Positions 2,170-64,000 of a stretch of DNA of 64,000 nt are shown piece by piece. Below the pieces are notes generated by a model. That model was not told the origin of the DNA and did not search any database. It worked only from the letters and a program-made list of their open reading frames with translations. Where the stretch lies: contig CM065880.1 of NCBI GenBank assembly GCA_033439255.1, forward strand, positions 2,294,001-2,358,000, read 5' to 3'. Source of the DNA: Hericium rajendrae. Lineage: Eukaryota > Basidiomycota > Agaricomycetes > Russulales > Hericiaceae. Within the stretch, counting starts at the first letter, position 1. Each line of letters opens with the position of its first letter. The position numbers were made by a program, and so were the translations under genes.

Positions 2170-2327
2170 CTTCGTGTCGCCTCAGCAAAGGAGGGACGCT
2201 GCAGCAGCGCGCGGGGTCGTGAACGGGAGGGGAGAAGGGTATCGGCGTCTGCCGAGCGCGCCAAGGCCAGGTCTAGTCGCGCTGAACGACCGTGACACGG
2301 CGATGAGCGCGTCGCGGGCGCGTAGGG

Positions 2328-3760
2328 ATGCCCGATCCCCAATGCGTGCGCTGCAGCAGGCAGGACACCAGCCCCGCAAACTTCCTGCTAACGTGCTCGG
2401 AATGCGCGAAGAAATGGCACCACCGTACGTGCTCTGCTTGCATATGGGCCGTTTCGAGCTCACGGCAGCTGCTCGCAGGATGCCACATTCCGCCATTGCA
2501 GGAGCCGGAGCTGATGGCACGCGTTGAGGCGTCCCTCAAGAATGACATCGATAACGGTCTCGAGGGATGGATATGCAAGCGGTGCTTGAAGAAGCAGAAT
2601 GCGAAGCAAGGAGGGCCTGGGATTGTTGTACCCCGACCACAGGTACGTCCCATCCCATACGCCGTTGAGAACGAAACCACTCATATTTTCGTGTCAAGCT
2701 TGTCGTGCCTACACAAAAAGGGCTGCAGGTCATGCAGGTCCCTGTTGATCCCGAAATTATCGAGGTCGTTGAAGAGCCGCATACAGAAAAGTTGCCCTCG
2801 CAGCCTGCGCCGAGTCTTCCGAATGTGTTCCAGCCTTATGCTCGACCGCTGCATATGCAGGAGGCGTCATCTTCGGTGTCTAATCCCAAAGCTCACGCTT
2901 CGCAAGACTCCCGCGCGACAGGCCAGGATCACAGACCTCAAACGCACCCGCTGCCTCCGCGCCCTGCCGCCCCTCAAGGTGTTAGGCGTCCCTCTGACCC
3001 TCGGCAGGGTATCTCAGAGAAATCCGGTGCAAAGTCTAATTCTGCATCCTCGACGCGGCATGCTGCTCCAGGCCCATCTTCGCACCGAGACAATCCCTCT
3101 TTGATTGTGCCGAGCACACCAGATCGACCAAGACACAGTGGCGATACCAGGCTTCTTACCCTTAAACCTCCCCACGCAGTCCCAGACACTCGCCCGGCTA
3201 ATGATCCCCCAGACCCCCAAGTAGAACCGCAGCCTCCCGTGCCTGACGTACCCCGAGACAGCTCCGGCATGCCCAACTTCCGCGCTATCATCTCGACCCT
3301 GCGCGCCTCCAGAAAACTCGACCTCCCGCGCGACCTCACACGCGCGTCGCCGTCACCTGGGCCCGCGGCCCCAACGCCCCCGGCCGACGAGGACTACGAC
3401 ATGGAAGACCTGTACTGGCCGCCGCGCCCGCGCCCGCCCGCGACGCCGGCCACCCAGCGCGCACGGCTGCCGGAAGCGTCGCTGCCGACCCCCGAGTCGA
3501 GGTTCACGTCCGTGCGCCGCTCGCCGACGCCGGAGCCGCTAGGGGATGGGGCGAAGAATAAGGCGATGCTGCCCATCCAGTGGATGCAGGCGACCCGTGG
3601 AGAGGACTCGTTGATGATCCAGGCCATCCGAGCGTGCAAGCGGCTGACGCTCGGGCCTGAGGATGCATCGCGTCGGCCGAGGAAGCGGGAAGCGCGGAAG
3701 CTGTCGAAGAAGGAGAAGAGGAAGAAGGCGATGGAGTTTTGTATTGCGTCTGACCAGTAG
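2328..3760 (+). CDS. PHD-finger protein with long disordered tail
   Basis: Three exons (2328-2424, 2479-2642, 2729-3760) encode 430 residues. Residues about 6-80 hold a Cys4-His-Cys3 arrangement: CVRC, then CSECAKKWHHRTC and a distal CKRC, which is a PHD-type zinc finger able to read histone tails. The remainder is proline- and serine-rich, predicted disordered, and ends in a lysine/arginine-rich stretch (KLSKKEKRKK) that could act as a nuclear localisation signal. The first intron splits the zinc finger at the HHR codon. Its start lies 158 bp from the divergent STRIPAK gene, so the two may share a promoter. Chromatin function is inferred from the domain alone; no orthologue is recognised. 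Confidence 0.75.
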
Positions 3761-4214
3761 GTGCGCTGGAAGTCTGTACATTGTATTGTTCGTGTCTCAT
3801 CTCTGGACTGTCTTTTCATTGTGCGGGCTAATGGTGTTCCTCCCATTAGCTGCATACCCTAATGCGACCCAATCTGCTGTATCGCCATAGTCGTCTCTGG
3901 CTGTCCTTACTTGCTGACCGATCTGTTCGAATATCTGTAATATTCATATGCTCTCAATCAGGCTTCATGCCCATGTGCTGCAGCCGAGTCAAAATTCTGT
4001 GCTGCTTCCACTTTAGCTTCTGGCCGTCGTTTTCGATTTTCCGAGGGATATATGCGCGAGTCGTCGCGATCACGTGTCCTTGAGGAAGTTCAAACGCGTC
4101 CTCGAAGTCGACCCCAACTTGTCTCTTGCCTCTCAACCTCTCCGCTACAGCCATCTTCACTGGAATATTTCATTTTCACCGTGTTGGGCCGTATCACCTA
4201 GTCTTCAATACGGC
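3761..4214 (+). other. Intergenic, PHD gene 3' flank and SAP gene 5' flank
   Basis: No gene is supported here. The open frame of the next gene runs upstream to about 4074, but its first ATG is at 4215, so this is probably 5' untranslated sequence. A CACGTG E-box-like hexamer lies near 4071. Confidence 0.4.
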
Positions 4215-6626
4215 ATGTCTACCACGGCTGGCTCGGGAAGCCTAGCCCAGGCGCAGAATCTCTCGAAGCTGACGGTCCCTCAGTTAAAAGCCTTATGCAA
4301 AGATCGAAAACTCACTGGCTATTCGAAACTAGGGAAGGCTTCTCTGCTGGAGAAACTGGGAGGTGGAAGTGGTACTACTCCAGCCCCTGCAGCTAGAAGC
4401 CCGTCTCAGCCTTCGCAAACAGCAGACCCTATCGCATCGGCGCCAACGACTTCTGATATCCATGTGGACTCTAACAATATTCTCTCTAGTCCTACGGATG
4501 CTGCATCCTTAGGGCCTTGTCGCCCCGCTGGTATTGGACCTTCTTCGCCCAATTCCATCCCGTTGATTGGCGAGGAAGACAGTCCAAGGGCATCTGCTGC
4601 CAGTGCTGAAACTAGTGCAGGCCACGTCTCGTCCGGACCCATGAACATCCAAGAGCATGTCACCTCTCCTGAGACAATGCATGCTTTTGCTGCAGTCGCG
4701 CAGGCCTCGTCTACGTCTCAGAAACAACCCTCGTCGCAGGTCTCCTCTGCGGTTCCAAAAAAGCGGCCATCTGCCCCGAGCAACTCGAAGCCATCCGCAG
4801 AACGAGCGCAGAAAAAAGCGAAGACAACTGCTTCCAACCCTCCGAAGTCGGTTCCGCGCATGCAGTCGACCAGCGAAGCACCGTCCCAGAAATCAGTGGT
4901 CCCTGCTGTTTTCAAAGTCCCTGCCGTACCCCAGAGAAAGGTGCCTGCTTCTGCTCCGCTCTCGTTGCAACCCAGCCAGTCTCCACAAGGAAGGTTACCG
5001 GGTCTTGGCCAGGCCAGCAAACAGTCGCAGTCGCTTGCAGCTCCTGGGAAGCGGTTTAAACCTCTCATGATCAACAAACCGAACAATACTGCCAGACCTT
5101 GTGCCTCTACAGCTCCTGCGATAATCAAGGAGCAGGTCTCAGCTCCGGCGGTTCCATGTTATCTAGAATTTTCCTCGCCCCCGTTCTCGGTGCCTCTGCA
5201 ACCTCTGAACATGCCTCCCTCTTTGTCACAGAGAAAGCATGTCCTGCGTTGGGCTGTGATACTCAGCGGTATCGCACCTGCTGATCGGAAGGCTTGCGCC
5301 CTTGTTTCAAAGACGTTCCGTTATGCAGGTGAGTCCCGGCTCTTCGTATATCGCTGCCCCGGATTTCTTCATGGTCCGACAGTCTATCTCTCTGCTGGAG
5401 AACGACTCTCTCAGGACTTCAGCGGGCGGCGATCGGCCCTGATGCGGATGCAATATTCTTCTGTCCAAGTGAACATGTGGCCGTATCTCTACTACAGGGA
5501 GCAAGAAAGAGAACAGTGGAAGCATTTCTTCGAAGCCACCTTCCTGGGCCAGTTTTACAGAGGCTTCGCTCCGATAGCTTCCCGCCTTTGGTCTAGTCCT
5601 GACCACGAGAGACAACTGACCGTCGCATTGAGGTAAGATCTGATCATATAGGACGCGCATAACTTATCTGATTCGATACTTTTAGATTTGTCTTGACGCG
5701 CTTATGGTTCACGATCTGCATCGGCACATCGAAGCCCGGCTGGCTTTGGGACACCGTCGTTGATGCACAGGAGATCATACCCGGCGAAATATGGACTATC
5801 ACCGTCTGCCCGGACTCGAGGAAACTGAACACCGAGTCTTTCTATGTCCTTGAGGAGACTTGCGAAGTCATTGGACGACCAGAGGTAGCAGACTCGGAAG
5901 GCGTTCGCCCATTCTCGAATGATCTACCTGTTCGTGCCGACTGGTCGCAGTACATCGACAAACGCATCGTCCCAGATGGGCAGCGCGTGACGCCTCTGGC
6001 GTCGCTCCTCGCGCATTTGAAATGGGCTAGCCAAGGAGAGTACGAGCGTGGTATCAGTCGACACTGGCTGGGTCGGATGGCCGGGAAAGGTGCTGAGGGA
6101 AAAGCATTGCGTATTGTTCGAGAGATATGTGTTGGCATGTGTGATTGGAAATAGGTGATGCGATCTCCGTCTACACACGACAAATGTCGCTCAAGTTGTT
6201 GCAGCGTGAGCGGCACCTGGTTGTCTGCCTCGCAGATGGCGCAAGATTTTGCTGGTCTATGCGAACGAACAGTCGGCGGCAAGATAAGGCAGCCACAACT
6301 CAGCATGTTCCTGCCAGCGTACGTCCATCTTCATCATCTTTCCAGAGGGAGCGATGATGACACACGACTACAGTCACCACCACGTCGAGAGCATACACTT
6401 CTCGAGTGCGGATGGACGGCCTTTACACCCTGCAGTTGCAGTCGTGCAGACTCTGGGAAGAGAGTACTTCGTCCTCAAAGACAACGGGATGCAGATCGGC
6501 TGCGAAGAGGACGGCGTTTCTGATGTTTGGCGAGGAATCCTTGGGTGCGACTATTCGGGAAAGGAAGTGGGCATGGGAACCTTGCGTCTTGCGCAGTTGG
6601 TAGATCGTATTCGCAAGTCACCATAA
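4215..6626 (+). CDS. SAP-domain protein of unknown function
   Basis: Four exons (4215-5632, 5686-6138, 6205-6318, 6374-6626) give 745 residues in one frame. Residues about 15-50 (LTVPQLKALCKDRKLTGYSK) match the SAP helix-turn-helix found in DNA/RNA-binding and nuclear-matrix proteins. A long Ser/Pro/Ala-rich linker follows, with a basic patch. From about residue 390 there is a well-ordered, highly aromatic C-terminal domain ending in a His-rich motif (AHHHVESIHFSSADG) and GMQIGCEEDGV, which I recognise only as a conserved basidiomycete protein. The donor of intron 2 (6139) is the least certain junction. Substrate and role are unknown. Confidence 0.65.
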
Positions 6627-27215: not shown

Positions 27216-27223
27216 GAGCTGCG
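27216..27223. repeat. 8-bp target-site duplication GAGCTGCG (left copy)
   Basis: GAGCTGCG abuts the element end AGGCATCC here and is repeated exactly at 31268-31275 directly after the other end (GGTCTGGTG). Confidence 0.85.
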
Positions 27224-30200
27224 AGGCATCCTTGTAACCCATTATAAACCTGTACCAGTAATAACAGGAGGGAAGGTTGCAAACTGTACCAATAATAAGG
27301 GAGGGTTCAGGACCCAATCTGAACCATTCAAATTGCTCATTATAAATCCAAAAAAAAATCATTATAAATATAATACAGTCTGGGCCGTACACTACTCGCT
27401 ACGCGCGCTTAGCGCGCCTACTCAAGCGGCTCCGCTCAGCACCATCCACCGCCCTGCGCGCTTCTCGCCTCAGCTACGCGCATGCCGCCGCCCGTCCCGC
27501 CCGACCTCGGCTACGCGCATGCTGCCGCCCGTCCCGCCCAACCTCGGTTACGCACGCGCTGCTGCCCGCCTCGCCCGACCTCGTCAACGCGCGCTGCCCG
27601 ACCTCGGCTACCACGCTCGCTCACATGCGCTTGCACCTGCCGCACGCCGCATGCCTCTCTTCCCCACCGCATACCGCTCGCTCTCCGCCGCACATGCTCG
27701 TTCCTCGCCGCACGCCGCTCGTTCCCGCCGCACGCCGCTCGTTCCCCGCCACCGTCGCTCACTCCCCACACTGTTGCCGCGACGCGTGTCGTCAGCGCCG
27801 TTGGCGCTGCCGACGACGCCGCTGCTCATCGCGAGGGTGCATCGCGGACGTTGGGGGGCTGAGTGAGGGGGCCCGCGCGCCGTTGTTGTTGCGCGTAGGC
27901 AATGGGTATGCGACGCGGGGTGCTGGGCATGCGGTGCGGGTGCTGGGAGCCCGGCGCCATTGCTGGGGACGCGGGTCGTTGCTGGGGTGTGCGGGTTGCG
28001 GCTCGTGGGCCATGGGCCGTGGCTGGGCCGTCGCGGGTCTGTGCTACGTGTCGAGCGGACTGGCCACGCTGGGCCGTGCACGTCCTCCGCGTGCCCGTGC
28101 GCATTCTTCCCGTGCTCGCACGCGTCCTAACACTCTGCGTACCGGTGCCGGAGTGCTGTGCGTTGCGCGCAGGGGTGTTGAGAGCCGCGCGGACGTGACA
28201 TGCGGCATGTAGGGGTGCCGAGGACGCGATACGCGATGCGTAGGGGCCGGGCGGCTGCGCGCGGTGTGTTGTCGTGGCTGTGAGTGCCTGCGCTGCGTGT
28301 GTACGACCGCGGGTATCGGGCGCGCGTCTGTGTCGTTGCATGCATGTTCGTGCTGGTCCTGATCGACTTGCACGCGCTTCTATGCGTGTCCGAGGCACGT
28401 GGAAGAGGGCGGACAGCTGCTGGAAGCCGTGGAGGGCGTGGAGAGGCGTCCGGGAGGGCGGTGAATGGGTGGAAGCACGGGGAGCAGAGCGGAGCGGATA
28501 CCGAGAGGTGCGAGGGGCGCGAAGAGCGCGGAGATGCGCGTGAGTGTGAGGGTGAGAGAGTGAGGAGAATGAGCGCGAGGGCTAGGGAGTGAGGCGAGCC
28601 GCATACGTGCTGTGATGCGTGCTGTGACGCGGCTCGGAAACTGCCGAGAATCGGCGACTGAGACCGAGGTGCCCGACGCTGGAGGAGGGGTGTTACCCCG
28701 CACGACTTCTGGAATGTCTTCCCCATGATTGGAGAGATTATTATGTACCTATAGTATAACACATTGTATATACAAATTTTCGAATGATTTAGAGAATAAT
28801 TCGAGCCACATTGAACGACTTATTGTAACCCTATAGTAACCCTAACTCGAATTCATGTAGCAGAGGCTTCACTTCGGAAACTCTTACCTATCTAGCTGTG
28901 CGGAATCGTTTTTGATGCCCTCAATAATGTGTGTACGAGATTTGGAATTTTTTAGACTTGATCCCAGAGCTTGAGGCCCGAGATACGCACAAAATACAGC
29001 TCATGGAACCGAAAGTTCACGTATATCGCCAGATCCTAAACATCTATGCCACTTAAAATTACAATAAAGTCTAAGTACATTCGTTATATATATTTTAGTG
29101 CACTGTAATAAACCGATGCAGCATGGGAGCACGTTGCGCTGCACAATTGCAGCTCGAATCTTGTGCCCGGCGTGCCCGAGGCATCGATTCGAGCTTGACG
29201 CGTTTAGTCTTTACGCACATTTTAGACTTTCTTATCAATGGCTTGGGATTTTCTTTCCTCCATTGCATTCTTTCCTTACCAAACTTTGTATTTCATTGTA
29301 TTCATACTATCTACACACTAGTTATTATTTCTACAGTTTAAGTAAATTTAGTTGTTCTTAAAATCCCTCTTCAACGACTCGGGACGAGGTACGTCGCCTA
29401 ATTCGGCAACTTCCGAACCGTGCCACAATCTCGTTGGCCGAGGCTATCTCTGTTCCCTCCCTCCCTCAAGCGGGGCGCAGTAGTACGAGGCTCAATAGCC
29501 TCATACCTCGTAAGTTCTTCTTTTCTTTTCTCCCATGTATATCTTTACTAACGAAGTTCGATTCCTTCAGCCTTGTACCGCGATGACGTGGCACGCTGCA
29601 CGCACCACGACGCCTCTGCTGCTCATCTACCCACTTCCATCGCACTTCCAAACGCACGTGCGACGACTCCCCACGCCATGAAGGTGCAGTCGCCGGTGCA
29701 CAAGACCCCGCGTTCGCAATCGCGCGCCGTCAAACTCACCCGAAGGCACGCGTGTACCAGCCCCCTGCCAGCCCCGTGCCCTGCGTCCCAACCCCGAGTC
29801 CCCGCGTGCCTCTCAGCCCCGCGCGCCATCCCACCACCATGACCGTATGCCCCAGCATCGTGCCCACACCTCCAGCCCTGCACCTCCCAGCCCCACACCT
29901 CCCAGCTCAGCACGTCCCAGCCCCACACCTCCCAGCCCCGCGCCCGTGCACCCCAGCGCTGCGACCCTGCATCCAAGCCCCCCGCATCCCAGCCCAGAGT
30001 CCCCGCGTCCATCTCTAGTCCCCGCGCGCCGTCCCTGAGATCCCGCGCGCATCTCCGAGCCCCCGCGCGCTGTCCCCGAGATCTCGCGCACGTCTCCGAG
30101 CCCCCGCGCGCCATCCCCGAGCCCCCGTGCGCCATCCCTGAGCCCCCGTGCGCCGTCTCCAGCCTCCACACGCCTGTCTCCAGCCACCCCATACCGTCTC

Positions 30201-31267
30201 CAGTCCCCCACGCCGTCTCCAGCTCCCCCGCGCCGTCTCCAGCTCCCCCGCGCCTGAATTCAGCCCCCTCGCGCCGTCTCCAGCCCCCGCGCGCCGTCTC
30301 CGCCCCGCGCGCGCTGTGCCCATTCCCGCACGCGCCGTCCCAGTGCCGTGCCCGCGCGTGTCCCAGCTCCACGCGTCTCAGCCCCCAGCCCCGTCTGCGC
30401 CATCCCAGCACCGCGGCCGCGCGCTGCAGCGCCATGCCCGCGCTCTCCACCCCGCGTCCAGCCCGGTTCCCGCGCCCGCGATCCCAGCGCCGGGCCCACG
30501 CGCTCCAATGCCGAGCCCGCACCCACGCACCAGCCCAAAGCCCGCGCTTCAGCACCGTCCCCGTGCGTCCCAGCCCTGAGCCCGCTCCACCCCGGCACCC
30601 GTGCGTGAATTCCGCCCGCGCACTCCACGCACGGGAGCCATCGGCGGTGCACGGCGGACGTGCGGCGAGCGTAGGGGATGGTGCGTGTGCGTGTACCAAC
30701 CGCAGCGTGCATGCTCTGCAGCGGGCATGCGGCGAACAGCGCGTGCAACCTGCGTGCAGCGCATGCGTAACCGTGCGGCGAGAGTGGGAACGGTACGTGG
30801 TAGGCGCCGGGGAGCGAGAGGGAAAGCGCGCGTGAAAGCACCGGCGAGCGCGCGTGCAGCGCCAGCGAGCACGCGTGCAGCGCTGGCGAGCGCGAGGGAA
30901 AGCGCCGGCGAACGCGGGAGGAAGCACCGGCGAGCGCAGGAGGAAGCACCGGCGAGCGCGAGGGGAAGCGCCGGCGAGCGCGAGGAAACACAAAGACAAG
31001 CGCCGGTGAGCGCGTGTGGAAGCGCCGGCAAGCCATAGGTAGTAATAGTAGCCGAGATCCTTAAGATCTCGGCCAATATGTTTTTTTAAGAATATAATAT
31101 GTTTTTTTGATATGTTGTACTATGAAAAACATATTCTATGCAAAACATATAAAGTTCCAAACATTGCATTTAGCCCGAAAATACTCTTTATAGTGTTACT
31201 GGTACAGTTGGAACCCTCCCTCCTATTATTACTGGTATAGGTTGCAACTGATCTACAGGGTCTGGTG
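27224..31267 (-). mobile_element. GC-rich non-autonomous TIR element, copy 1 (4,044 bp, reverse orientation)
   Basis: Ends are defined by the 8-bp duplication GAGCTGCG. The terminal region of each end carries related sequence: ACCTGTACCAGTAATAACAG followed by GGAGGGAAGGTT and CTGTACCA, in inverted orientation at the two ends. An 8-bp duplication and imperfect TIRs fit hAT-type insertion, but no transposase is encoded. The inside is two GC-rich, low-complexity arms around an AT-richer core (about 28720-29560) that is shared with the other copies. Long frames inside translate to repetitive Ala/Arg/Pro peptides and are judged noncoding. This copy is visibly more diverged than the two forward copies. 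Confidence 0.8.
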
Positions 31268-31275
31268 GAGCTGCG
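31268..31275. repeat. 8-bp target-site duplication GAGCTGCG (right copy)
   Basis: Exact repeat of 27216-27223, immediately outside the element terminus. Confidence 0.85.
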
Positions 31276-43784: not shown

Positions 43785-46700
43785 CACCAGACCCTGTAGA
43801 TCAGTTGCAACCTATACCAGTAGTAACAGGAGGGAGGGTTCCAACTGTACCAGTAACACTATAAGCAGTATTTTCGGGCTAAATGCTATGTTTGGAACTT
43901 CACATGTTTTGCATAAAATATGTTTTGTATAGTATAACATATCAAAAAACATGTTATATTCTTAAAAAAACATATCGGCCGAGATCTTAAGGATCTTGGC
44001 CACTATGACTACCTACGCTTGCCGGCGCTTCTACATCCGCTCGCCGGCGCTTGTTTTGGTGCTTCCTCGTGCTCGTCGGCGCTTTCCCCCGCGCTCGCCG
44101 GCGCTTTCCCTCGCGCCCGCCGGCGCTTCACGCGCGCCCGCCGGCGCTTCCGCGCGTGCTTTCCCTCCCGCTCACGGTGCCTACCACCTACTGTTCCCAC
44201 TCTCGCCCCGCGGCTATGCACGCGCTGCACGCAAGTTGCGTGCGCCGTTCGCCGCACGCCCGCTGCAGAGCACGCACGCCGCGGTCAGCACGCGCCATCC
44301 CCTATGCTTGCCGCACGTCCGCCGATGGCTCCCGCGCGTGGAGTGCGCCGGCGGAATTCATGCGCGGATGCCGGGGTGGAGCGGGCTCGCGGCTGGGACG
44401 CGCGGGGACGGCGCTGAAGCGCGGGCTTGGGGCTGGTGCGTGGGCGCGGGCTCGGCATTGAAGCGCACCCAGCGCTGGGACCGCCGGCGCGGGAACGGGG
44501 CTGAACGCGGGGTGGAGAGCACGAGCATGGCGCTCCAGCGCGCGGCCGCGGTGCTGGGATGGCGCAGGCGGGGCTGGGGACTGGGATGCGTGGAGGTGGG
44601 ATGCGCACGGGCACGGTGCTAGGACGGCGCGTGCGGGGATGGAGACGGCGCGCGGGGGACTAGAGACGGCGCGGGGGACTGGAAATGGGCGCGCGGGGAG
44701 ATGGCGCGGGGCTGGAAATGGGCGGGTGGGGCTGGAGACGGCGCGCGGAGGCTGGAAATGGTGCGGGAGGCTGGAGACGGCGCGCGAGGGCTGAAGACGG
44801 CGCGCGGGGGCTCAGGGACGGCGCGCGGGGGCTCAAGGACGGCGCGCGGGGGCTGCGGGGGACTAGAGACGGCGCGCATGGGGCTGAGACGGCGCGCGCG
44901 GGGCTGAGACGGCGCGCGCGGGGCTGAGACGGCGCGCACAGGACTGGAGACGGTGCGTGGAGGCTCGGGGATGGCGCGCGGGGGCTCAGCGCTGGGATGT
45001 GTGGCTTGGACGCGACGCCGCGGCGCTGGGGCACACGGGCGCGGGACTGGGAGGTGTGGGGCTGGGACGCGCGGAGCTGGGAGGTGCGGGACTGGGTGGT
45101 GCAGAGTTGGAGATGTGGGTGCGACGCTGGGGCGCGTGGCCACGGTGTTGGGATGGCACGCAGGGCTGGGAGGCGCGCGGGGACTCGGGGCTGGGACGCA
45201 GGGCACGGAGCTGGCAGGGGCTGGGACACGCGCGCCTCCGGTGAGTTTGACGGCGCGCAACTGCGAGCACGGGGTCTTGTGCACCGGCGAATGCCCTTTC
45301 ATGGCGCGAGGAAGCGTCGCACGCACATTTGGAAGCACGATGGAGGTGGGCAGATGAGCGGCGGCGGCGTTACGGTGCATGCAGCGTGCCACGTCATCGC
45401 GGTTTTAGGCTATAAAAAAATGTAATCTCGTTAGCAAACGCATGAATAGTAAAAGAGAAGAGAAATACTTACGAATTATGGAGGCTATTGAGCCTCGTAT
45501 TTGTGCCCCGCTTGAGGGAGGGAGAGAAGAAAGATAGCCCCAGGTATGAGCTTGCGACACGGTTCGGCGATTGCCGAATTAGGCTACATGCCTCGTCCCG
45601 AGTCGTCGAGGAGCTCTTTCAAGGCCAAATAAATTTGAGTAAACTCTACAAATAATATGATAGACGTAGCTAGTCTGAATACAATTGGATCAAAAGTTTG
45701 GTAGTAATTGAGTGCAATAGAGAAGAGAAACATCCGAGCCATTGATAAGAAAGTCTAAATCGAGCGAAAGACTAAACACGTCAAGCTCGATTCGAGGCCT
45801 CGGGCACGCCGGGCACAAGGTTCGAGCTGCAATTGTGCATCATGTCTTACTCCCATCTTGTATCGGCTTAGTGAACTGCGTTTTTAAGTGCTTGAAGAGC
45901 TCGTACAGCTTGTATTATAATTTTAAGTAGTCTCGATCTTTAGGATCTGGCGAAATACATGAATTTTCAGTTCCATGAGCTATATTTTGTGTGTATCTCG
46001 GGCCTCAAGCTCTGGAATCGAGTCCAAAAAATTTCAAACTTCGTGTGCACATTATTGATAGTATCAGAAACGATTTCGCACAGCTAGATAGGTAAGAGCT
46101 TCCAAAGTGAAGCCTCTGCTACATGAAATTCGAGTTAGGGTTACTGTAGGGTTACAATAAGTCACTCATTGTGGCTCGAATTACTCTCTAAATCGTTCGA
46201 AAATTTGTATGTACAATGTACTATATTATAGGTACATAAAACTCGCTCCAATCAGGGAGAATACACTCCAGAAGTCGTGCGGGGTAACACCCCTGCTCCA
46301 GCATCGGGCACCTCGGTCTCAGCCGCCGATTCTCGGCAGTTTCCGAGCCGCGTCACAGCACGCATCACAGCACGTACGCGGCCCGCGACTCTCGCGCCGC
46401 TCGTGCTTCCACCCATTCTCCGCCCTCCCGGACGCCTCTCCACACCCTCCACGGCTTCCAGCAGCCGTCCGCCCTCTTCATGCGCCTCGGACACGCATAG
46501 AAGCGTGTACAAGTCGATCAGGATGCGCACGAACACGCGTGCAATGACACAGATGCGCGCCCGACACCCGCGGTCTCACACATGCAGCGCAGGCACTCAC
46601 GGCCACGACAACACACCGCGCGCAGCCACGCAGCCCCTACACATCGCACATCGCATCCTCGGTGCCCCTGCATGCCCCGCGTCGCATCCCCGCGGCTCTC

Positions 46701-47628
46701 AACACCCCTGCACGCGACGCGCAGCATCCCGGCACCGGTACACAGAGCGCTAGGACGCGGACGAGCACGCGGAGGACGCGCATGGCATGCGGAGGACGTG
46801 CACAGCATGCAGAGGATGCGCATGGCATGCAGAGAACGCGCACGGCACGTGGAGGACACGCATGGCCCATGGCCGACGAGCCACAACCCGCACACCCCAG
46901 CAACGACCCGCGTCCCCAGCGATCGCGCCGGGCTCCCAGCACCTGCACCGCACGCCCAGCACCCACACCGCACGCCCAGCACCTGCACCGCACGCCCAGC
47001 ACCCGCGCCGCACACCCAGCACCTGCACCGCATGCCCAGCACCCGCACCGCACGCCCATTGCCTACGCGCAACAACAACGGCGCGCGGGCCCCATCGCTC
47101 AGCCCACCCAACGCCCACGATACACCCTCGCGATGCAGCAGCGGCGTTGTCAGCAGCGCCAATGGCGCTGATGACACGCGTCGCGGCAGCAGTGCGGGGA
47201 GCGAGCGACGGCGGCGGGGAACGAGCGGCGTGCGGCGGGGAATGAGCGGCGAGCATGGTAGCCGAGGTCGGGTGGGGCGGGCGGCGGCACGTGTTGACGA
47301 GGTCGGGCAAGGCGGGCAGCGGCGGGCGCGTAGCCGAGGTCAGGCGGGGCGGGTGGCGGCACGTGCGTAGCCGAAGCGGGAAGCGCGCAGGGTGGTGGAC
47401 GGTGCCGAAGGGAGCCGTTCGAGTAGGCGCGCTAAGCGCATAGCGAGTAGTGTACGGCCCAGATAGTGCCCAGACTGTATTATATTTATAATGATTTTTT
47501 TCGGATTTATAATGAGCAATTTGAATGGTTCAGATTGGGTCCTGAACCCTCCCTTTTTATTGGTACAGTTTGCAACCCTCCCTCCTGTTATTACTGGTAC
47601 AGGTTTAAAATGGGTTACAAGGACGCCT
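43785..47628 (+). mobile_element. GC-rich non-autonomous TIR element, copy 2 (forward)
   Basis: The left end CACCAGACCCTGTAGATC and right end GGTTACAAGGACGCCT match those defined by target duplications in the other copies. Nearly all of it is almost identical to the copy at 59790-63586. The flanks (CTCCAATT on the left, CAGTGAGC on the right) do not match, so the right side was altered after insertion. G-rich repeats fill about 44640-45240 and C-rich repeats (CACGCCCAGCACC) about 46900-47060. No transposase is present. Confidence 0.75.
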
Positions 47629-48168
47629 CAGTGAGCGACGGTGGCGGGGAACGAGCGGCGTGCGGCGGGAATGAGCGGCGTGCGGCGAGGAACGAGCATG
47701 TGCGGCGGAGAGCGAGCGGTATGCGGCGGGGAAGAGAGGCATGCGGCGTGCGGCAGGTGCAAGCGCATGCGAGCGAGCGTGGTAGCCGAGGTCGGGCGGC
47801 GTGCGTTGACGAGGTCGGGCGAGGCGGGCAGCAGCACGTGCGTAACCGAGGTTGGGCGGGACGGGCGGCGGCATGCGCGTAGCCGAGGTTGGGCGGGACG
47901 GGCGGCGGCATGCGTGTAGCCGAGGCGGGAAGCGCGCAGGGCGGTGGATGGTGCCGAGCGGAGCCGCTTGAGTAGGCGCGCTAAGCGCGCGTAGCGAGTA
48001 GTGTACGGCCCAGACTGTATTATATTTATAATGATTTTTTTTGGATTTATAATGAGCAATTTGAATGGTTCAGATTGGGTCCTGAACCCTCCCTTATTAT
48101 TGGTACAGTTTGCAACCTTCCCTCCTGTTATTACTGGTACAGGTTTATAATGGGTTACAAGGACGCCT
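47629..48168 (+). mobile_element. Right-end fragment of another element copy
   Basis: The sequence starts inside the element (GTGAGCGACGGTGGCGGG) and runs to a second complete right end, GGTTACAAGGACGCCT. It repeats the last 400-500 bp of the preceding copy but is closer to the reverse copy at 27224-27850. It abuts copy 2 directly. Confidence 0.7.
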
Positions 48169-48918
48169 CGTGCCCACGCACCAGCCCGAAGCCCGCGCTT
48201 CAGCACCGTCCCCGTGCGTCCCAGCCCTGAGCCCGCTCCACCCCGGCACCCGTGCGTGAATTCCACCCATGCACTCCACGTGCGGGAGCCATCGGCAGTG
48301 CGCGGCGGACGTGCGGTGAGCGTAGGGGATGGTGCGTGTGCGTGTACCAACCGCAGCGTGCATGCTCTGCAGCGGGCGTGCGGCGAACAGCGCGTGCAAC
48401 CTGCGTGCAGCGCATGCGTAACCGTGCGGCGAGAGTGGGAACGGTACGTGGTAGGCGCCGGGGAGCGAGAGGGAAAGCGCGCGTGAAAGCACCGGCGAGC
48501 GCGCGTGCAGCGCCAGCGAGCACGCGTGCAGCGCTGGCGAGCGCAAGGGAAAGCGCCGGTGAACGCGGGAGGAAGCACCGGCGAGCGCGGGAGGAAGCAC
48601 CGGCGAGCGCGAGGGGAAGCGCCGGCGAGCGCGAGGAAACACAAAGACAAGCGCCGGTGAGCGCGTGTGGAAGCGCCGGCAAGCCATAGGTAGTAATAGT
48701 AGCCGAGATCCTTAAGATCTCGGCCAATATGTTTTTTTAAGAATATAATATGTTTTTTTGATATGTTGTACTATGAAAAACATATTCTATGCAAAACATA
48801 TAAAGTTCCAAACATTGCATTTAGCCCGAAAATACTCTTTATAGTGTTACTGGTACAGTTGGAACCCTCCCTCCTATTATTACTGGTATAGGTTGCAACT
48901 GATCTACAGGGTCTGGTG
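48169..48918 (-). mobile_element. Left-end fragment of an element copy, reverse orientation
   Basis: Nearly identical to about 30520-31267 of copy 1, running from GC-rich interior (CACGCACCAGCCC) to the complete left terminus, which ends in GATCTACAGGGTCTGGTG at 48918. The first 3 kb of the element are missing. Confidence 0.75.
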
Positions 48919-54549: not shown

Positions 54550-57500
54550 TCAAAAAGGCATGAACATTGTTGAAGTACTATTGTGCCAATGCCTCTGCAA
54601 ATGCACTCTCTGCCTGATTGGCCATGCTAATCCAGAGTCCATCTGTCTGGAGGCATAGCTTTGGTGCCCTGGATCTGTGTTGTTGGCCTTCCATTTTCCC
54701 CACCGTTCTGCCCTCTTGGTGAAGTAATTGATCGTTCGTGCCATCTCCCTTGGAAGGGCTTCCCGCTCCGCACGCCATTGCTTCATCTGGGCCCGAGACC
54801 GTAGCCAGTGAACATGATAAACTACAATTCTCCATCAGTGACAGGGATCATGTTGAATGCAGCAGACCGGACCCACATTCCATTGTCCATTTACTGTCAT
54901 TCTCACCTTTCCGTCCCAGTCTCCAGAACCATGAAAGAGGTTCATTACGAGATCCCCGCATGCTTGAGTCAATGACAAATGTCTGCGCCCGTAAGTCCGA
55001 CCGGTGCAAGACCTTATAAGTCTTCAATGTGTCAGAATCTGCAAGCCCAAGGCTGTTTAGAGCACATCGTGCTCGGTTGTAGACACGGCACTGCTGTTGG
55101 ACAACCTTGTCCGTAGTCTCAATATCTGCCCAAGCCCTTGTCTGCTTTCGTTGTGATCTGCGGGCTGCCCACACCTTCATCCGGAACTGGAATGCCTTCT
55201 CGCTGAGAGCTATACGGAGCTGACTAAGTGCATCATTCATTTGCCCGATCCGAAGGTCAATTTCCTGTTCCAACATGCCGTGAAGTCCATGAGTAGTGGC
55301 CAGTGCCTTTCCCACAGTGGAGGGCAATGGAAGGGCAACGCGCTCTGGCGGAATTGCTGCATCGTCGTCGATGAGAGGTCTCGAATATTCAGTGCAGACG
55401 TCCTCCCATAGTTCATCGTATTCGGCGCCGTCATCGATCATCCATCCGATAGTGAATCCGGGGATCCAATCCTCGCCTTCGGACATGTAAGGCAGACTCC
55501 GCCATTCAAACTGATCAATTTGGGTCTGCAGCCGTCGTCGTCATTCTGCGATGGTGTTCTGCTGGTTTAATGTAGCAGTTTTACCAACGCTTCGGACGTA
55601 TGCTGCCAGCTGTAGCCTAGCATGACCATTGGCTCCGTCAGAATAAAGGAATGGTAAATCGGACAACGCACTGAGCCTCTTCTATCTTGAGTCCTGAGTG
55701 AATCCATGCAGCGCAACCACGAAGCCTGTCAGACTCCACTGCAGCCACAAGTCGGTTTTCCATTTCCGCTTTTCCTGGTACTGTCTATGACATTAGCAAT
55801 TGTTCTCCAGGCTGAGGATGGCTGGGAGCATATGTCCATCGATCTGCAGATCATATACATCCATTGCTTTTATATCCCATAAGCGGTTCTTCTGTGCAGT
55901 CTCTTCTATCTTCTTCCATCCATCATGGACGTCATCAGGCACTGTGTGATCAAAATCTGCGAATGCTGTCTCAGCAATCTCGAGACCTGTTGCTGACTTC
56001 TTCCACTTCTTGCACAATGACTTCACTGCTCCCGACTTTCAGTACTGGTCAGGGAGCTCATACAATGATCGAAACATGCATACCGCTGTGTACAAGCTTC
56101 TTCCAATTTGAGTCATTCATGTGATCATCCAAAATCTCCCTCCTGTGAGAGATAGACATCCCTCTCGTACTTCGTGAGATCTCGTTCAAAGGAGCCCACA
56201 ATGTCTCCAATATCTCCCCATCCACCTGGCGTGCGCCCGGAATGAACGTTGGTGAAAACCGAGCGAGGCATTCTTGCCGGTGACCGTGGATGTGGAAAAG
56301 ACCAATACCGGATATAATTTCCATGTCCGGAGGTAGTTCCAAAAATTCGCTCCGGTCCACACGTGAGTAGAAATTGACAAACCACTGGCAAGCGATGTCA
56401 TACAAGAGTCTCGCTGTAGTCAGACCTTGCGACTTGTACCCCAACCCTTGGCAGACGGAGTAATCCATATTGACTTGACTGCAGACTATCTGTCAGCACA
56501 ACATTATCTTTGTGGACTGACAGAGAGATACACCTACCGTTCACCCTTTTGAAAGTCCACTGTCGTGTGTGGTATAAATGCCCCATGCATGCAGGCAGCG
56601 GACCCCAAACCGGATGAGTATAAATTACTCTTCCGGGCATTGGCTTGATTCACCGCGCGGTGGTCATTGCATGTGGATCGCTGTTGCAGGCAAAACGGTT
56701 ACCGACCACATAATGCAATATGCTACTTAGTTGCACCTCTTGCCTGACCTCCCGATTGCTGCGGAGATGTTGATGGTATCTTTTGCTCTCGACCATGAAC
56801 CTGGTGCCATCGCTCAAAGCAAAATCGTTGTCCGGTCTTCTCATCTTCTCCAGCTGGGCAGTAAAGTTGCCATCCTGCATTTGTATACGTGCATCGAGGT
56901 CACTGAAAACCAGCAGTCAACGAAGAGAACTGGATGGGAAATAATGGACTCACAGTCGGTCTTCAAGCAGCATGTTTTCTCCTGGTTGAGGACATGTGGG
57001 ACAGAATAATGCCAAGTCTCCATTTCCTGGCATGTCAGTGCGATGACCGAAACCATGCCATCGCATATACTGCAGGTGCCTCCATACCCGCAGAGACCGC
57101 ATAAGTTCCCGATAACGGTCCTATGAGAATGTGTTAGTGCCAATGAGAGAACTGTTAAGGCATGCAATGCAACAGGAACCGAATCTGGAAAGGCAGGGTT
57201 GGTTAGTCGACGGAGCTTTCCGAAGAACTGGAAAAATGAGGTTTTGCATTCAAGATTGTCCAAACGACAGTCTTCTAACACCTGGAATGTGAACGCAGTC
57301 TGGGGCCGACAAAATGATGCTGGAAATAGATTGCTCCGAAGGAGTTGACGGTGCAGTGGTTCATCAGTAGAGCAATAGCAGTTCACCACTCCTAATTCGT
57401 GCACTCCGGACCGATCAACAATGGTCAGGATATGATCCGGTGTATCTTCGCTAGCATGGAGCCTCTGACTCCGGGCCTGACGTTCAGCCTCCGCCAAGGT

Positions 57501-59089
57501 ATCTTCCTCGTTGACATGCTCCCAATCGGTGTCTCCATCATCCTCATGGACATAATCATCGTCATCAAGGAGGCTCGCAGCTAGCGTACATGGCCGGTCC
57601 TTCTGGAAGACACCACATTCTATGGCTTCCTGTTCAGTCTTCGCCATGTAGGCAGAAGCACGTTGGAACTCGTCAAAGTGGATGGTAGGCACCGGACTTG
57701 GTGTCCTACAATTGGGCCCTGGTCCTCGGTGGTCATCGTTGGACTGAGCTCCATTATGTGAGCGTGTAGTCATCCTTCGGGTTGATGATAAGGGTGTGGG
57801 TGGTGATGGGGATGGTTGTCGGCTGTGATGAGGTCGTGTGATGAGGCGGCCGCGCATGGATTTGGAGGCAGCTGGTAGTGACTCAGCCTCAGATTCTGAA
57901 AGTACATCGGACACCAGCCCGGCTGATCGTCCAATATCCCCTGTGTCTCCATGAGTACTAGTGATGCGACAATTGGGGAGTAAATGCATGGATGTGGCTG
58001 GAGTATCAGTGTCAGAGTCATCAATGTGGGGTTCCTGGGAAGTCACAGTAGAAATGGTCCCTTCTTTCTCCTTCTGATGGCCTCTACCAACATGGACGGT
58101 CTCTAAGACTGACCGGATATGTGACCTGCTGGTGTTGCTGGTGGTAGTCGATTCACTTGGAGACGGCGGACAAGTCGTAGCAGCCCGTGACACAACTTCT
58201 GAATTACCGATCTCTGAGTACCCATCCTCTGAACCTGATAGGATGTCATTTGTGGCAGGGGGTGAAGGGCCTCAGGAGGAAGAACTTGATGGTGAACGGA
58301 ATGCTGTGAATGAATGGTTCGGGTCTTGAATAGAATGGCTGGATGGTCGAGGAGTCATCCCGGAAGAAACAGTCGTCCTGGATTCTGCACTATCTGAATC
58401 ATGGCCATTCCCAGCAATAGACGGACAGCGTGAGCCAGCATGTCCCAGATATATGAGAACGCTGAGTTCACTGAGCCAAGCCGGCTCATAATGCGTACCG
58501 GTCCATTTTTGAACACGGTGGAATGGCAAATGACTGTGGCACCTTTTACAACACTTTGCGCAGAATTGCGGACTGGAGAAGCAGTCCTTGCACCGCCATT
58601 CGGGTTTCCGTTTGCATTGCACTGTGGCGCATGTGTCCTCTCGGGCCTCACCCTGGAGAATCGTGTGAATGTAGTCATCTTCGGTGTCTGTCCATTCGGT
58701 CAGCCATGTTCGGTCTGTCTACATGAATGATATTAGGACAGAAATGAATTCCAAAGCTGGAGACGTACACGGGGTTTCCGTGGTTTAAGTGACTGGGCAT
58801 GATACAGCTCCCAGTCTTGCTCGGTCATGACCGGAGCTTCTGGGGAGACGTGTGCAGCTCCATCGGCCTTGGCTGTAGATCCTTGGCGGGTAGTCCGTGA
58901 CGAATCACCCTTTCTGTCAGCACGGGCACACTTTCCGCTTCCATTCCGGTCTGATGAGGCATCATCGGCCTCCTTGGTTTGCTTGGGTTGAGCCGCTGGC
59001 TGACTGACTTTCCGTGTTCCACGCCCAGTCTCAAGTTCTTCTTGTACGATGATCCGTATGCCACGGCCTTTCTTCACTCTGGGTGGCAT
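54550..59089 (-). CDS. KDZ-family transposase with N-terminal CxC2-type cysteine cluster
   Basis: A multi-exon minus-strand gene starting MPPRVKKGRG at 59089. Exon 1 is basic and disordered. Exon 2 (from about 58730) has the cysteine cluster CKDCFSSPQFCAKCCKRCH followed by HRVQKWTGTHYEPAWL, as in CxC2 domains fused to Kyakuja-Dileera-Zisupton transposases. An acidic Ser-rich linker leads to CYCSTDEPLHRQLLRSNLFP, then the catalytic region: NMDYSVCQGL, YDIACQWFVNFYSR, HIHGHRQECLARFS and DGEILETLWAPLNEIS. The C-terminus has VYNRARCALNSLG, SWFWRLGRKGE and MARTINYFTKRAERWGKW. The transposase would cut and paste the element. A TGA at 58272-58274 interrupts the linker, and more stops lie near 55500-55790, so this copy may be inactive or have unresolved introns. 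Confidence 0.8.
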
Positions 59090-59245: not shown

Positions 59246-59787
59246 TTACAATGAAAAAGGTAATGATGCGTGAGTCTGCGATGACTCGTCCGTTACGTCG
59301 GGTTCGGATGGGATGTTGAACTGACTGTCATTGCACCAGTCCGGTGCTTTGACGATCATGCGCTCGTGCACTGCATCTCTCATCCAAAATACATAACACA
59401 CCCTGTCCGGTTCACATTCTGGGACTGCATGGATTACCATTTTTGAGCAGACCACAGCTAGTGTCCCGGACCTGTATGCAAACCTCAGGTTGAGATTCTG
59501 GAGGTGCAGTTCTGCATCAGGATATGTGCCGATCGTCGCCAGGAGATCTGGCCATTCGGCGCGACCTCCCATATCTCTATGCAGCATGGTGGCCCGGTTA
59601 GAGATGATCAAGACACCACTAAATGCAGATGTCCAGTGGCACATCACTTCACGAAACTCCGGCATATCTCTGAGCCGTTCCAACGTGCATATGCCAGCCT
59701 CGTGTAATTCTGGGTATATGACCCCAAGAATTGCACTCATGATCGCGCCTGATTCCTGGAATGCTAGCAGCCATTCTTTTGCCCGCT
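59246..59787 (-). pseudogene. TET/JBP-like 2OG-Fe(II) dioxygenase, catalytic part, split by an insertion
   Basis: This is the 3' portion of the gene; its 5' portion is at 63587-64000. It reads QRAKEWLLAFQESGAIMSAI, then SAFSGVLIISNRATMLHRDM with the HxD iron ligands, EWPDLLATIGTY, then MVIHAVPECEPDRVCYVFWM with the distal His and the 2-oxoglutarate-binding Arg. This matches the TET/JBP dioxygenases that accompany KDZ transposons in Agaricomycetes and oxidise 5-methylcytosine or thymine. The KDZ gene starts 157 bp downstream in the same direction. The catalytic residues are intact; the break lies in an upstream position, at the first codons of an exon. Confidence 0.75.
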
Positions 59788-59789
59788 GG
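59782..59789. repeat. 8-bp target-site duplication CCCGCTGG (left copy)
   Basis: CCCGCTGG precedes the element start CACCAGATCC and is repeated exactly at 63587-63594 after the right end GACGCCT. Confidence 0.9.
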
Positions 59790-62700
59790 CACCAGATCCT
59801 GTAGACCATTCATAACCTATACCAGTAGTAATAGGAGGGAGGGTTCCAACTGTACCAATACCACATAAGCAGCATTTTTGGGCTAAAGGGAATGTTTGGA
59901 ATCTCAAATGTTTTGCATAGTATATGTTTTGCATAGAATAACATATCAAAAAAAAACATATTTTATTCTCAAAAAACATATTGGCCGAGATCTTAAGGAT
60001 CTCGGCCACCGTCGCTACCGTACATGCTCGCCGGCGCTTCCACGCGTGCTCAGCGCTCGCCGGCGCTTCCACGCGCGCTTGCCGGCGCTTTCCCTCGCGC
60101 CCGCCGGCGCTTTCCCTCGCGCCCGCCGGCGCTTTCCCTCGCGCCCGCCGGCGCTTCACGTGCGCCCGCCGGCGCTTCCGCGCGTGCTTTCCCTCCCGCT
60201 CACGGCACCTACCACCTACTGTTCCCACTCTCGCCCCGCGGCTATGCACGCGCTGCACGCAAGTTGCGCGCGCCGTTCGCCGCACGCCCGCTGCAGAGCA
60301 TGCACGCCGCGGTCGGCACGCGCGCACGCGCCATCCCCTATGCTTGCCGCACGTCCGCCGATGGCTCCCGCGCGTGGAGTGCACCGGCGGAATTCACGCG
60401 CGGATGCCGGGGTGGAGCGGGCTCGCGGCTGGGACACGCGGGGACGGCGCTGAAGCGCGGGCTTGGGGCTGGTGCGTGGGCGCGGGCTCGGCATTGAAGC
60501 GCGCCCGGTGCTGGGACCGCGGGCGTGGGAACGGGGCTGAACGCGGGGTGGAGAGCGCGAGCATGGTGCTGCAGCGCGCGGCCACGGTGCTGGGATGGCG
60601 CAGGCGGGGCTGGGGACTGGGACGCGTGGAGGTGGGACGCGCCTGGGCACGGTGCTGGGACGGTGCGTGCGGGGATGGAGACGGCGCGCGGGGGACTAAA
60701 GACGGCGCGGGGGACTGGAAATGGGCGCGCGGGGAGACGGCGCGGGACTGGAAATGGGCGGGTGGGGCTGGAGATGGCGCGCGGAGGCTGGAAACGGCGC
60801 GCGGAGGCTGGAGACGGTGCGCGGGGGCTGAAGACGGCGCACGGGGCTCAGGGACGGCGCGCGGGGACTGCGGGGGGCTAGAGATGGCGCGCACGGGGCT
60901 GAGACGGCGCGCACGGGGCTGAGACGGCGCGCACGAGGCTGGAGACGGTGCGTGGAGGCTCGGGGACAGCGTGCGGCGGCTCGGCGCTGGGGTGCGTGGC
61001 TTGAACGCGACGCCGCGGCGCTGGGGCACACGGGCGCGGGACTGGGAGGTGTGGGGCTGGGACGCGTGGAGCTGGGAGGTGCGGGACTGGGTGGTGCAGA
61101 GTTGGAAATGTGGGTGCGATGCTGGGGCGCGCGGCCACGGTGTTGGGACGGCACGCAGGGCTGGGAGGCGCGCGGGGACTCGGGGCTGGGACGCAGGGCG
61201 CGGAGCTGGCAGGGGCTGGGACACGCGCGCCTCCGGTGAGTTTGACGGCGTGCAACTGCGAGCACGGGGTCTTGCGCACCGGCGAATGCCCTTTCATGGC
61301 GCGAGGAAGCGTCGCACGCACATTTGGAAGCACGATGGAGGTGGGCAGATGAGCGGCAGCGGCGTTACGGTGCATGCAGCGTGCCACGTCATCGCGGTTT
61401 TAGGCTATAAAAAAATGTAATCTCGTTAGCAAACGCATGAATAGTAAAAGAGAAGAGAAATACTTACAAATTATGGAGGCTATTGAGCCTCGTATTTGTG
61501 CCCCGCTTGAGGGAGGGAGAGAAGAAAGATAGCCCCAGGTACGAGCTTGCGACACGGTTCGGCGATTGCCGAATTAGGCTACATGCCTCGTCCCGAGTCG
61601 TCGAGGAGCTCTTTCAAGGCCAAATAAATTTGAGTAAACTCTACAAATAATATGATAGACGTAGCTAGTCTGAATACAATTGGATCAAAAGTTTGGTAGT
61701 AATTGAGTGCAATAGAGAAGAGAAACATCCGAGCCATTGATAAGAAAGTCTAAATCGAGCGAAAGACTAAACACGTCAAGCTCGATTCGAGGCCTCGGGC
61801 ACGCCGGGCACAAGGTTCGAGCTGCAATTGTGCATCATGTCTTACTCCCATCTTGTATCGGCTTAGTGAACTGCGTTTTTAAGTGCTTGAAGAGCTCGTA
61901 CAGCTTGTATTATAATTTTAAGTAGTCTCGATCTTTAGGATCTGGCGAAATACATGAATTTTCAGTTCCATGAGCTATATTTTGTGTGTATCTCGGGCCT
62001 CAAGCTCTGGAATCGAGTCCAAAAAATTTCAAACTTCGTGTGCACATTATTGATAGTATCAGAAACGATTTCGCACAGCTAGATAGGTAAGAGCTTCCAA
62101 AGTGAAGCCTCTGCTACATGAAATTCGAGTTAGGGTTACTGTAGGGTTACAATAAGTCACTCATTGTGGCTCGAATTACTCTCTAAATCGTTCGAAAATT
62201 TGTATGTACAATGTACTATATTATAGGTACATAAAACTCGCTCCAATCAGGGAGAATACACTCCAGAAGTCGTGCGGGGTAACACCCCTGCTCCAGCATC
62301 GGGCACCTCGGTCTCAGCCGCCGATTCTCGGCAGTTTCCGAGCCGCGTCACAGCACGCGTCACAGCACGTACACGGCCCGCGCCTCTCGCGCCGCTCGGT
62401 TTGCGCTCGGTACCCTCTCCGCTCTGCTCCCCGTGCTTCCACCCATTCCCCGCCCTCCCGGACGCCTCTCCACACCCTTCACGGCTTCCAGCAGCCGTCC
62501 GCCCTCTTCACGCGCCTCGGACACGCATAGAAGCGCGTACAAGTCGATCAGGACGCGCACGAACACGCGTGCAACGACACAGACATGCGCCCGACACCCG
62601 CTGTCTCACACACGCAGCGCAGGCACTCACGGCCACGACGACACACCGCGCGCAGCCGCGCAGCCCCTACACATCACACATTGCGTCCTCGGTGCCCCTG

Positions 62701-63586
62701 CATGCCGCGCGTCGCGTCCCCGCGGCTCTCAATACCCCTGCACGCGACGCGCAGCACCCCGGCACCGGTACGCAGAGCGCTAGGACGCGGACGAGCACGC
62801 GGAGGACGCGCATGGCACGTGGAGGACGCCCACGGCACGCAGAGGATGCGCATGGCATGCAGAGAACGCGCACGGCACGTGGAGGACACGCACGGCCCAT
62901 GGCCGACGAGCCACAACCCGCACACCCCAGCAACGACCCGCGTCCCCAGCGATCGCGCCGGGCTCCCAGCACCCGCACCGCACGCTCAGCACCCGCGCCG
63001 CACGCCCAGCACCCGCGCCGCACGCCCATCACCTGCACCGCATGCCCAGCACCCGCACTGCACGCCCAGCACCCCGCGCCGCACACCCATTGCCTACGTG
63101 CAACAACAACGGCGCGCGGGCCCCATCGCTCAGCCCACCCAACGCCCGCGATGCACCCTCGCGATGCAGCAGCGGCGTCGTCGGCAGCGCCAACGGCGCT
63201 GACGACACGCGTCGCGGCAGCAGTGCGGGGAGCGAGCGACGGCGGCGGGGAACGAGCGGCGTGCGACGGGGAACAAGTGGCGAGCATGGTAGCCGAGGTC
63301 GGGCGGGGCGGGCGGCGGCACGTGCGTAGCCGAAGCGGGAAGCGCGCAGGGCGGTGGACGGTGCCGAAGGGAGCCGTTCGAGTAGGTGCGCTAAGCGCAT
63401 AGGGAGTAGTGTACGGCCCAGACAGTGCCCAGACTGTATTATATTTATAATGATTTTTTCGGATTTATAATGAGCAATTTGAATGGTTCAGATTGGGTCC
63501 TGAACCCTCCCTTTTTATTGGTACAGTTTGCAACCCTCCCTCCTGTTATTACTGGTACAGGTTTAAAATGGGTTACAAGGACGCCT
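59790..63586 (+). mobile_element. GC-rich non-autonomous TIR element, copy 3 (3,797 bp) inserted in the TET/JBP gene
   Basis: Exact boundaries follow from the CCCGCTGG duplication. Left terminus CACCAGATCCTGTAGACC; right terminus GGTTACAAGGACGCCT. The TIRs align imperfectly over about 70 bp (shared AACCTATACCAGTA-type and GGAGGGAGGGTT blocks). It is almost the same as copy 2 at 43785 throughout, including the AT-rich core (about 61400-62270), showing recent amplification. Left part G-rich (60650-61240), right part C-rich (62930-63080). No transposase is encoded, so it must be mobilised in trans. Confidence 0.85.
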
Positions 63587-64000
63587 CCCGCTGGGTCTTG
63601 AGGGAGACAGACGTGTAGAGGGGAAAGTGAGTGTCCTACAGCGAAATCCAGGTACACACTGAATTCTACATCGACGATAGAAGGAAGGGTCTCATACCTC
63701 ATGGCCGAGTGCAAACCATGCTGGGGACAAATCTTCAAAGCCAGGATGCAAGGTGCAGACTACCGGATTATGATAAAGGTTTTGAGCATGACGAGTCAGA
63801 GACTTCATGGCTTCGGACCTCGTTCCCTTGGACCTCGAGCCTGCTGCTTGCTTCGCGGACTTGACAATGCCCGATCCTGCTGGTCCTGGATTCGTCGGCC
63901 CATTCTTTCTGTAAATTTCAGTCCAGCTCCTTTGGAAGAGGGGCTCGAGGATCTTTGCAGCATTGAACATGATGGCCTGCACAAGCAATTGATCAACACA
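63587..64000 (-). pseudogene. TET/JBP-like gene, 5' part
   Basis: Minus-strand exon from the window edge to about 63701 reads RSWTEIYRKNGPTNPGPAGS, a Lys/Arg/Ser-rich linker, then SLTRHAQNLYHNPVVCTLHP and SPAWFALGHE. A GT-AG intron (about 63700-63601) follows, and the next exon begins TQR at the insertion point. Removing the element and one target copy joins TQR to AKEWLLAF in frame. The gene start is outside the window. Confidence 0.65.

Follow-up and report, generated by a model that had tools for sequence, protein, structure and literature searches.

A GC-rich, gene-less transposon family with 7-bp target-site duplications, very probably non-autonomous members of the KDZ superfamily

TET+ Kyakuja elements of Laccaria are described as having 7-bp target-site duplications and CA..TG termini and as being without inverted repeats, and the same source gives 8-bp duplications for Zisupton and 7-bp duplications for the rust hAT7 elements (Kojima 2025, PMC12730594, sections available). 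In Cryptococcus neoformans, duplications of 8 bp were reported for KDZ1 and of 4-8 bp for KDZ2 and KDZ3, and the sections of that study available to us state that no evidence of moving non-autonomous copies was obtained (PMC12810828). Non-autonomous DNA elements of Marasmius oreades were assigned to autonomous families by their ends together with the duplication length (PMC8290104, available part).

The window analysed here is a stretch of 64,000 nucleotides (G000:C3:2294001-2358000) from the Hericium rajendrae genome of 46.8 Mb in 19 contigs. It contains a complete copy of a GC-rich repeat of ~4 kb, element A, with the following features:

27216..27222, no strand: left copy of the 7-bp target-site duplication GAGCTGC of element A; the G at 27223 is part of the element
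27223..31267, plus strand: element A, a complete non-autonomous copy with left end GAGGCATCCTTGTAACC and right end TACAGGGTCTGGTG
31268..31274, no strand: right copy of the 7-bp target-site duplication GAGCTGC

The three frames of element A that were searched matched 0 Pfam families each, in agreement with the earlier note, which had seen no transposase, and an Rfam search with the element gave 0 matches. Whole-genome searches, the counts of which are lower bounds, gave at least 20 matches with the left end and 40 with the right end (the best 40 of 96 candidates scored); the latter consisted of 22 long family right ends, three right ends of a related family (family 2) and 15 pieces of 55 bases. 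This 55-base piece lies just inside the family right end and is found at other places too; in the window it occupies 31051-31105, contains the near-palindrome CCGAGATCCTTAAGATCTCGG and recurs at 88-95% outside the family. Six of the 19 exact left ends fall within 101 kb of contig C3, which suggests short-range hopping. The window itself holds four left and four right ends, contributed by copies A, C and D together with a chimeric pair at 47630-48918. When copies were compared and their ends aligned, the earlier description of several copies in the window, sharing their termini and forming a non-autonomous, locally clustered family with unlike ends, was borne out. Besides A and D, the copies in the window are as follows:

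43785..47629, minus strand: copy C, which aligns to A in three pieces at 73-84% identity and is without target-site duplication
47630..48169, minus strand: left-end fragment of an A-like copy (97%), which stops exactly at copy C
48173..48918, plus strand: fragment with the right end of an A-like copy (98%), facing the left-end fragment head-on

The region 43785-48918 is thus a chimeric cluster, in which copy C abuts the left-end fragment and this in turn meets the right-end fragment head-on, and it looks like the product of aberrant transposition or of rearrangement between copies. Elsewhere, L013 (C17:154300-162300) and L014 (C17:62200-70200) have common flanks in inverted orientation and are a segmental inverted duplication on contig C17. 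Nested in L016, at its positions 848-6600, is an insert of 5.75 kb that is bounded by CATCTGAGAAA and TTTCTCAGATG and has a duplication of 2-3 bp; we take it to be possibly a Plavaka- or CACTA-like non-autonomous element.

The length of the duplication was determined by comparing the flanks of 18 copies having both ends. L014, whose flanks are those of L013, the chimeric pair at 47630-48918 and the right-end-only places C1:280105 and C17:410395 were left out. The base beside the left end, before AGGC, is G in 17 of the 18 copies and therefore belongs to the element, which begins GAGGC. Counted from AGGC, 8 bp are exactly repeated in only four copies; eight more fail by one base, and in seven of these eight (the exception is L015) the failing base adjoins the left end. 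With 7 bp, 11 of the 18 copies match at 7/7 and two more at 6/7, while none of 306 control pairings, of a left flank with the right flank of another copy, reached 6/7. The next target base is also G in five of the 13 duplicated copies, A and D among them. The 7-bp duplication is absent from five copies (C, L019, L020, L023 and L026). The target-site duplication of the family is 7 bp, not 8. The earlier note had given 8-bp duplications for A and D and had proposed looking for them in the flanks of further copies; the duplications are real, and their length has to be corrected.

The two ends of the family are unlike each other, beginning GAGGCRTCCYTGTA... and CACCAGAYCCTGTA..., and each then contains TACCART at about 31 and 65. 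In element A these repeats are located as follows:

27253..27293, plus strand: the two subterminal repeats of the left end, TACCAGT (from element position 31) and TACCAAT (from element position 65)
31198..31237, minus strand: right-end subterminal repeats TACCAGT, 31 and 64 from the right end

Ten of the 18 copies were scanned for TACCART. At the left end, eight of them have it at both 31 and 65 (L025 is without the first site and L027 without the second), and at the right end all ten have it at both 31 and 64; only three further sites were found in these copies (two in L013, one in L027); outside elements, the window has 12 in 50.6 kb. A GGAGGGTT word is also visible in the end alignments. 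Positions 24-72 of element A form inverted repeats of 88% with positions 3973-4020, and the outermost 24 bases are without clear ones. The earlier note had pointed to repeated words at the ends as possible transposase sites; the TACCART core does recur at fixed positions. A spacing that stays constant although the outermost bases of the ends differ would be expected of transposase sites, and the TACCART repeats are probably of this kind.

Coding elements with related ends were found in the genome. Two KDZ elements of 15-16 kb, at C17:4402-20450 and C8:2476213-2491176, have the ends CACCAGACCTTGTA and GAGGCGTCCATGTA and are flanked by the duplications GTCGGTG (C17) and CGAGGCC (C8), where the eighth base matches too. 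The C17 element encodes CxC2 (E 3.1e-44) and KDZ (PF18758, E 1.7e-38) and also carries a gene X and a TET-like frame. This last frame (L069) matched PF12851 with an E of 0.0057, below the cut-off, and gave 0 matches in a PDB search; we presume it to be TET-like partly on the basis of sequence motifs. Gene X (L032, L053 and L069) is a third gene, present in family 2 and in C17-type elements, that reads away from the TET-like gene; its first-exon stretch is 35-38% identical, and the first-exon frame in L069 had no Pfam match. All six comparisons of end 80-mers among the family, family 2 and KDZ elements scored above each of their 500 mononucleotide shuffles (z 8.8 to 22). The spacing of the subterminal words is kept to different degrees: in three family-2 right ends TACCAGT at 31 is followed by TACCAAC or TACCAAT at 65, nearly the spacing of the family, and in the C17 element TACTGAC or TACCGAC stands at 31 with no similar word at 65.

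Further places were screened in the same genome, in which KDZ stretches number at least 172. A third KDZ element has its right end at C8:2450522, and its left end did not lie within the stretch read. Sequences resembling the left end (3 mismatches) lie at C12:1341415 and C16:67551, each beyond the 3' end of a KDZ gene and in the expected orientation; at the C12 end a C takes the place of the G beside AGGC. With one mismatch allowed, three matches of CACCAGACCTTGTA border gene X and KDZ and are correctly oriented. Three others, at C6:1234468, C17:328577 and C17:388043, were not taken as ends; they lie 3.86-3.88 kb outside a KDZ gene and look internal. AGGTTTCCTTGTAACCAATT, present at 4 loci, was set aside and is near no listed KDZ gene in the right orientation.

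The closest coding relative is a much-interrupted element of 44,082 bases at C14:1146628-1190709, which has both family ends and a KDZ gene and of which about 20.3 kb were read (L067, L071, L062 and L053). Its left end was found at C14:1146629 by a pattern search with 2 mismatches, with the KDZ gene 2 kb inside. This end (L067) is 78-82% identical over 73-77 bases to family copies (A and nine others) and has TACCAAT at 31 and 65, the same spacing as in the family. A right end at 1160.9-1164.4 kb had been considered and was not there; it was found at 1190709 (L053, family 2), 77% identical to the family right end over 167 bases. The KDZ gene, a fragment resembling a TET upstream exon and gene X are arranged as in the C17 element, with both order and orientation preserved. 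Compared pairwise, the fragment matches the C17 exon that precedes the TET-like domain (E 3e-12); 0 Pfam families were found for either. Outside the ends CTTCATC is repeated exactly on both sides, and the eighth base is G on one side and T on the other. The KDZ stretch contains one stop codon (TGA), and a further KDZ and TET/JBP pair lies within the span, at 1165-1168 kb. We take C14:1146628-1190709 as one interrupted element, its unity being suggested by the order, the orientation and the 7-bp match. A 7-bp duplication is thus present in all three coding elements with both flanks read, among which only C14 distinguishes 7 from 8. The earlier proposal to look for a coding relative was answered in part: KDZ elements with homologous ends exist, and no intact one with exactly the family's ends was found in the genome.

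Within the window, copy D lies in a KDZ-TET element:

56106..56540, minus strand: KDZ transposase domain (PF18758; G000:C3:2350106-2350540) of the KDZ-TET element hit by copy D
56841..58271, minus strand: open frame with a CxC2 cysteine cluster (PF18803, E 7.6e-21), same KDZ-TET element
59378..59764, minus strand: TET/JBP domain (PF12851, 63.5 bits; G000:C3:2353378-2353764), cut from the upstream part by copy D
59790..63587, minus strand: copy D, with the 7-bp duplication CCGCTGG at 59783-59789 and 63588-63594

About a dozen other places score nearly as high as the PF18758 match of the window, one of them 98.5% identical over 3.97 kb. Beyond copy D the upstream part of the KDZ-TET element resumes and continues to the end of the window (98.8% over 411 bases against L064). 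Since parts of the element stand on both sides, copy D separates the TET/JBP domain from the part preceding it. A related empty site for copy D, at C8:692146-692152 (L068), gives a gap-free alignment of 246 bases, 99.2% identical, with the flanks once the element is removed and one duplication kept; 7 and 8 bp are indistinguishable at this site. Copy D lies 7-13 bases upstream of the start of the TET/JBP match as placed in the intact C8 relative, and our guess is that it disrupts a splice site. The arrangement at 59378-63594 is that of a passenger inside a larger transposon of what is very probably the same superfamily. As a direct partner of the family, this KDZ-TET element was rejected, because no family-like end was found at it: its 3' side is 98.5% identical to L063 down to window position 52134, the end of the stretch read, with no such end, and a search near the element within the window with up to 2 mismatches found none.

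Compared with the TET+ Kyakuja elements of Agaricomycetes, as far as they are described in the sections available (PMC12730594), the present family is alike in its 7-bp duplications, in having CA at one end (18 of 18 copies) and in lacking long perfect terminal inverted repeats; its coding relatives encode a KDZ transposase and the C17 relative has a TET-like gene. It differs in being non-coding and ~4 kb long, in its imperfect subterminal inverted repeats and in its other end, which is TC and not TG, so that the termini read from the right end are CA..TC. Because CA..TG is not found, the Kyakuja label was withheld and the family was assigned to the KDZ superfamily, with which it is joined by coding relatives that have homologous ends, encode a KDZ transposase (PF18758) and share the duplication length. 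The 8-bp duplication of Zisupton was not observed. The length speaks equally against a hAT element, and the hAT gene found between family ends, in L017, has its own repeats. KDZ1-KDZ3 of Cryptococcus (PMC12810828, available sections) likewise have a KDZ transposase with a CxC cysteine cluster, but their inverted repeats are 139-241 bp long. In Marasmius oreades, judging from the available part of the source (PMC8290104), the relation between coding and non-coding elements is the same and the genome has KDZ and Plavaka elements, whereas most of the elements are <1 kb and this family is not described. No paper plainly on a non-autonomous KDZ-superfamily family of this sort appeared in the literature listings. 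We regard the GC-rich, gene-less repeat as a new non-autonomous family of a known superfamily, otherwise ordinary, its newness being judged from the literature only.

Taken together, the family very probably consists of non-autonomous DNA transposons of the KDZ (Kyakuja-Dileera-Zisupton) superfamily. As its ends and 7-bp footprint are common to large KDZ transposons, we infer that it is most likely mobilised by the KDZ transposase of larger elements. This transposase would bind the paired subterminal sites at both ends, excise the element and join it to a target site opened by a staggered cut of 7 bases, the repair of which would produce the duplication, and the GC-rich interior would travel as passive cargo. 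The motif letters of the C17 and C8 elements differ (TACYGAC), so their transposase may not be the mover of this family. Against the KDZ assignment stand the facts that the cognate coding element is a single broken-up copy (C14) with a stop codon in its KDZ stretch, that the termini are CA..TC where published Kyakuja ends are CA..TG, that the C12 end lacks the G beside AGGC, and that five of 18 copies are without a duplication.

The earlier note had raised hAT-type transposition as fitting 8-bp duplications, while finding the ends unlike classic hAT ends. Eight matching flank bases at A and D, and a gene with a Dimer_Tnp_hAT domain lying between the family ends inside copy L017, would lend some weight to this reading. 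The scarcity of exact 8-bp matches among the 18 copies speaks against it, and the L017 gene sits between a separate pair of inverted repeats, TAGTGATGGACATGGGTA and TACCCATGTCATTCACTA, outside which visual inspection revealed no duplication; it was dismissed as a partner and regarded as a nested element. Moreover, when at least 33 hAT matches in the genome were set against the listed ends, those at C1:581 kb (L017) and C1:283 kb accompanied a family end, the two differing in their orientation towards it, and the match at C5:1207845 fell outside a bare right-end match of 14 bases, at a distance of 0.6 kb. Given that the larger elements with shared ends carry a KDZ gene, a hAT origin of this kind is now extremely unlikely. 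The chance is slimmer still that a hAT lineage with 7-bp duplications, such as hAT7 of rust fungi in the available description (PMC12730594), moves the family; the duplication length would agree, but the hAT matches of the genome have no consistent tie to the family ends and the elements with homologous ends are KDZ elements. It is also conceivable that the KDZ kinship is only apparent, the small family having inserted beside or into KDZ elements and its true helper being an unseen transposase. Copy D did insert into a KDZ-TET element, and with KDZ matches so common in the genome proximity alone means little. Yet the homology concerns the KDZ elements' own termini, with duplications directly outside them at all three places with both flanks read, and we consider this explanation very unlikely.

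The observed/expected CpG ratio is 1.12-1.20 in seven of the nine copies measured and 0.87 and 0.94 in the other two, compared with 0.91 in the rest of the window, 1.04 in the C17 KDZ stretch read and 0.96 in the nested hAT stretch. The interior at 28690-29560 has at least 45 matching places, of which 18 belong to family copies and 27 (66-75%) are spread over 22 other loci, and family ends were absent from the four such loci that were read (L072-L075). At L072, CACCAGTCCCAG and GAGGTGTCCCAG occur near the ends, apparently swapped relative to the interior, and no duplication of 6-9 bp was found there. L074 has only shifting flank matches of 6-7 bp, without agreed ends. On a speculative reading, which we hold to be unlikely, the GC- and CpG-rich interior would be no accident: gene-less elements may ride on both the KDZ transposase and the TET/JBP dioxygenase of coding elements, and the latter would oxidise methylated cytosine in the passengers and thereby prevent CpG decay. 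As a further part of this reading, the recurrence of the core interior at loci without family ends suggests that passengers may change their ends and, with them, their helpers. If the TET/JBP part were true, the question whether a transposon TET protects DNA in trans could be put to a natural test on the non-coding copies.

In conclusion, the analysis ties a previously unclassified GC-rich repeat to KDZ transposons, which in fungi are often carriers of TET/JBP genes. The anatomy of its ends, with unlike termini, paired subterminal repeats at ~31 and 65 and a 7-bp duplication, could guide searches for further non-autonomous KDZ families and tests of the sequences to which KDZ transposases bind.
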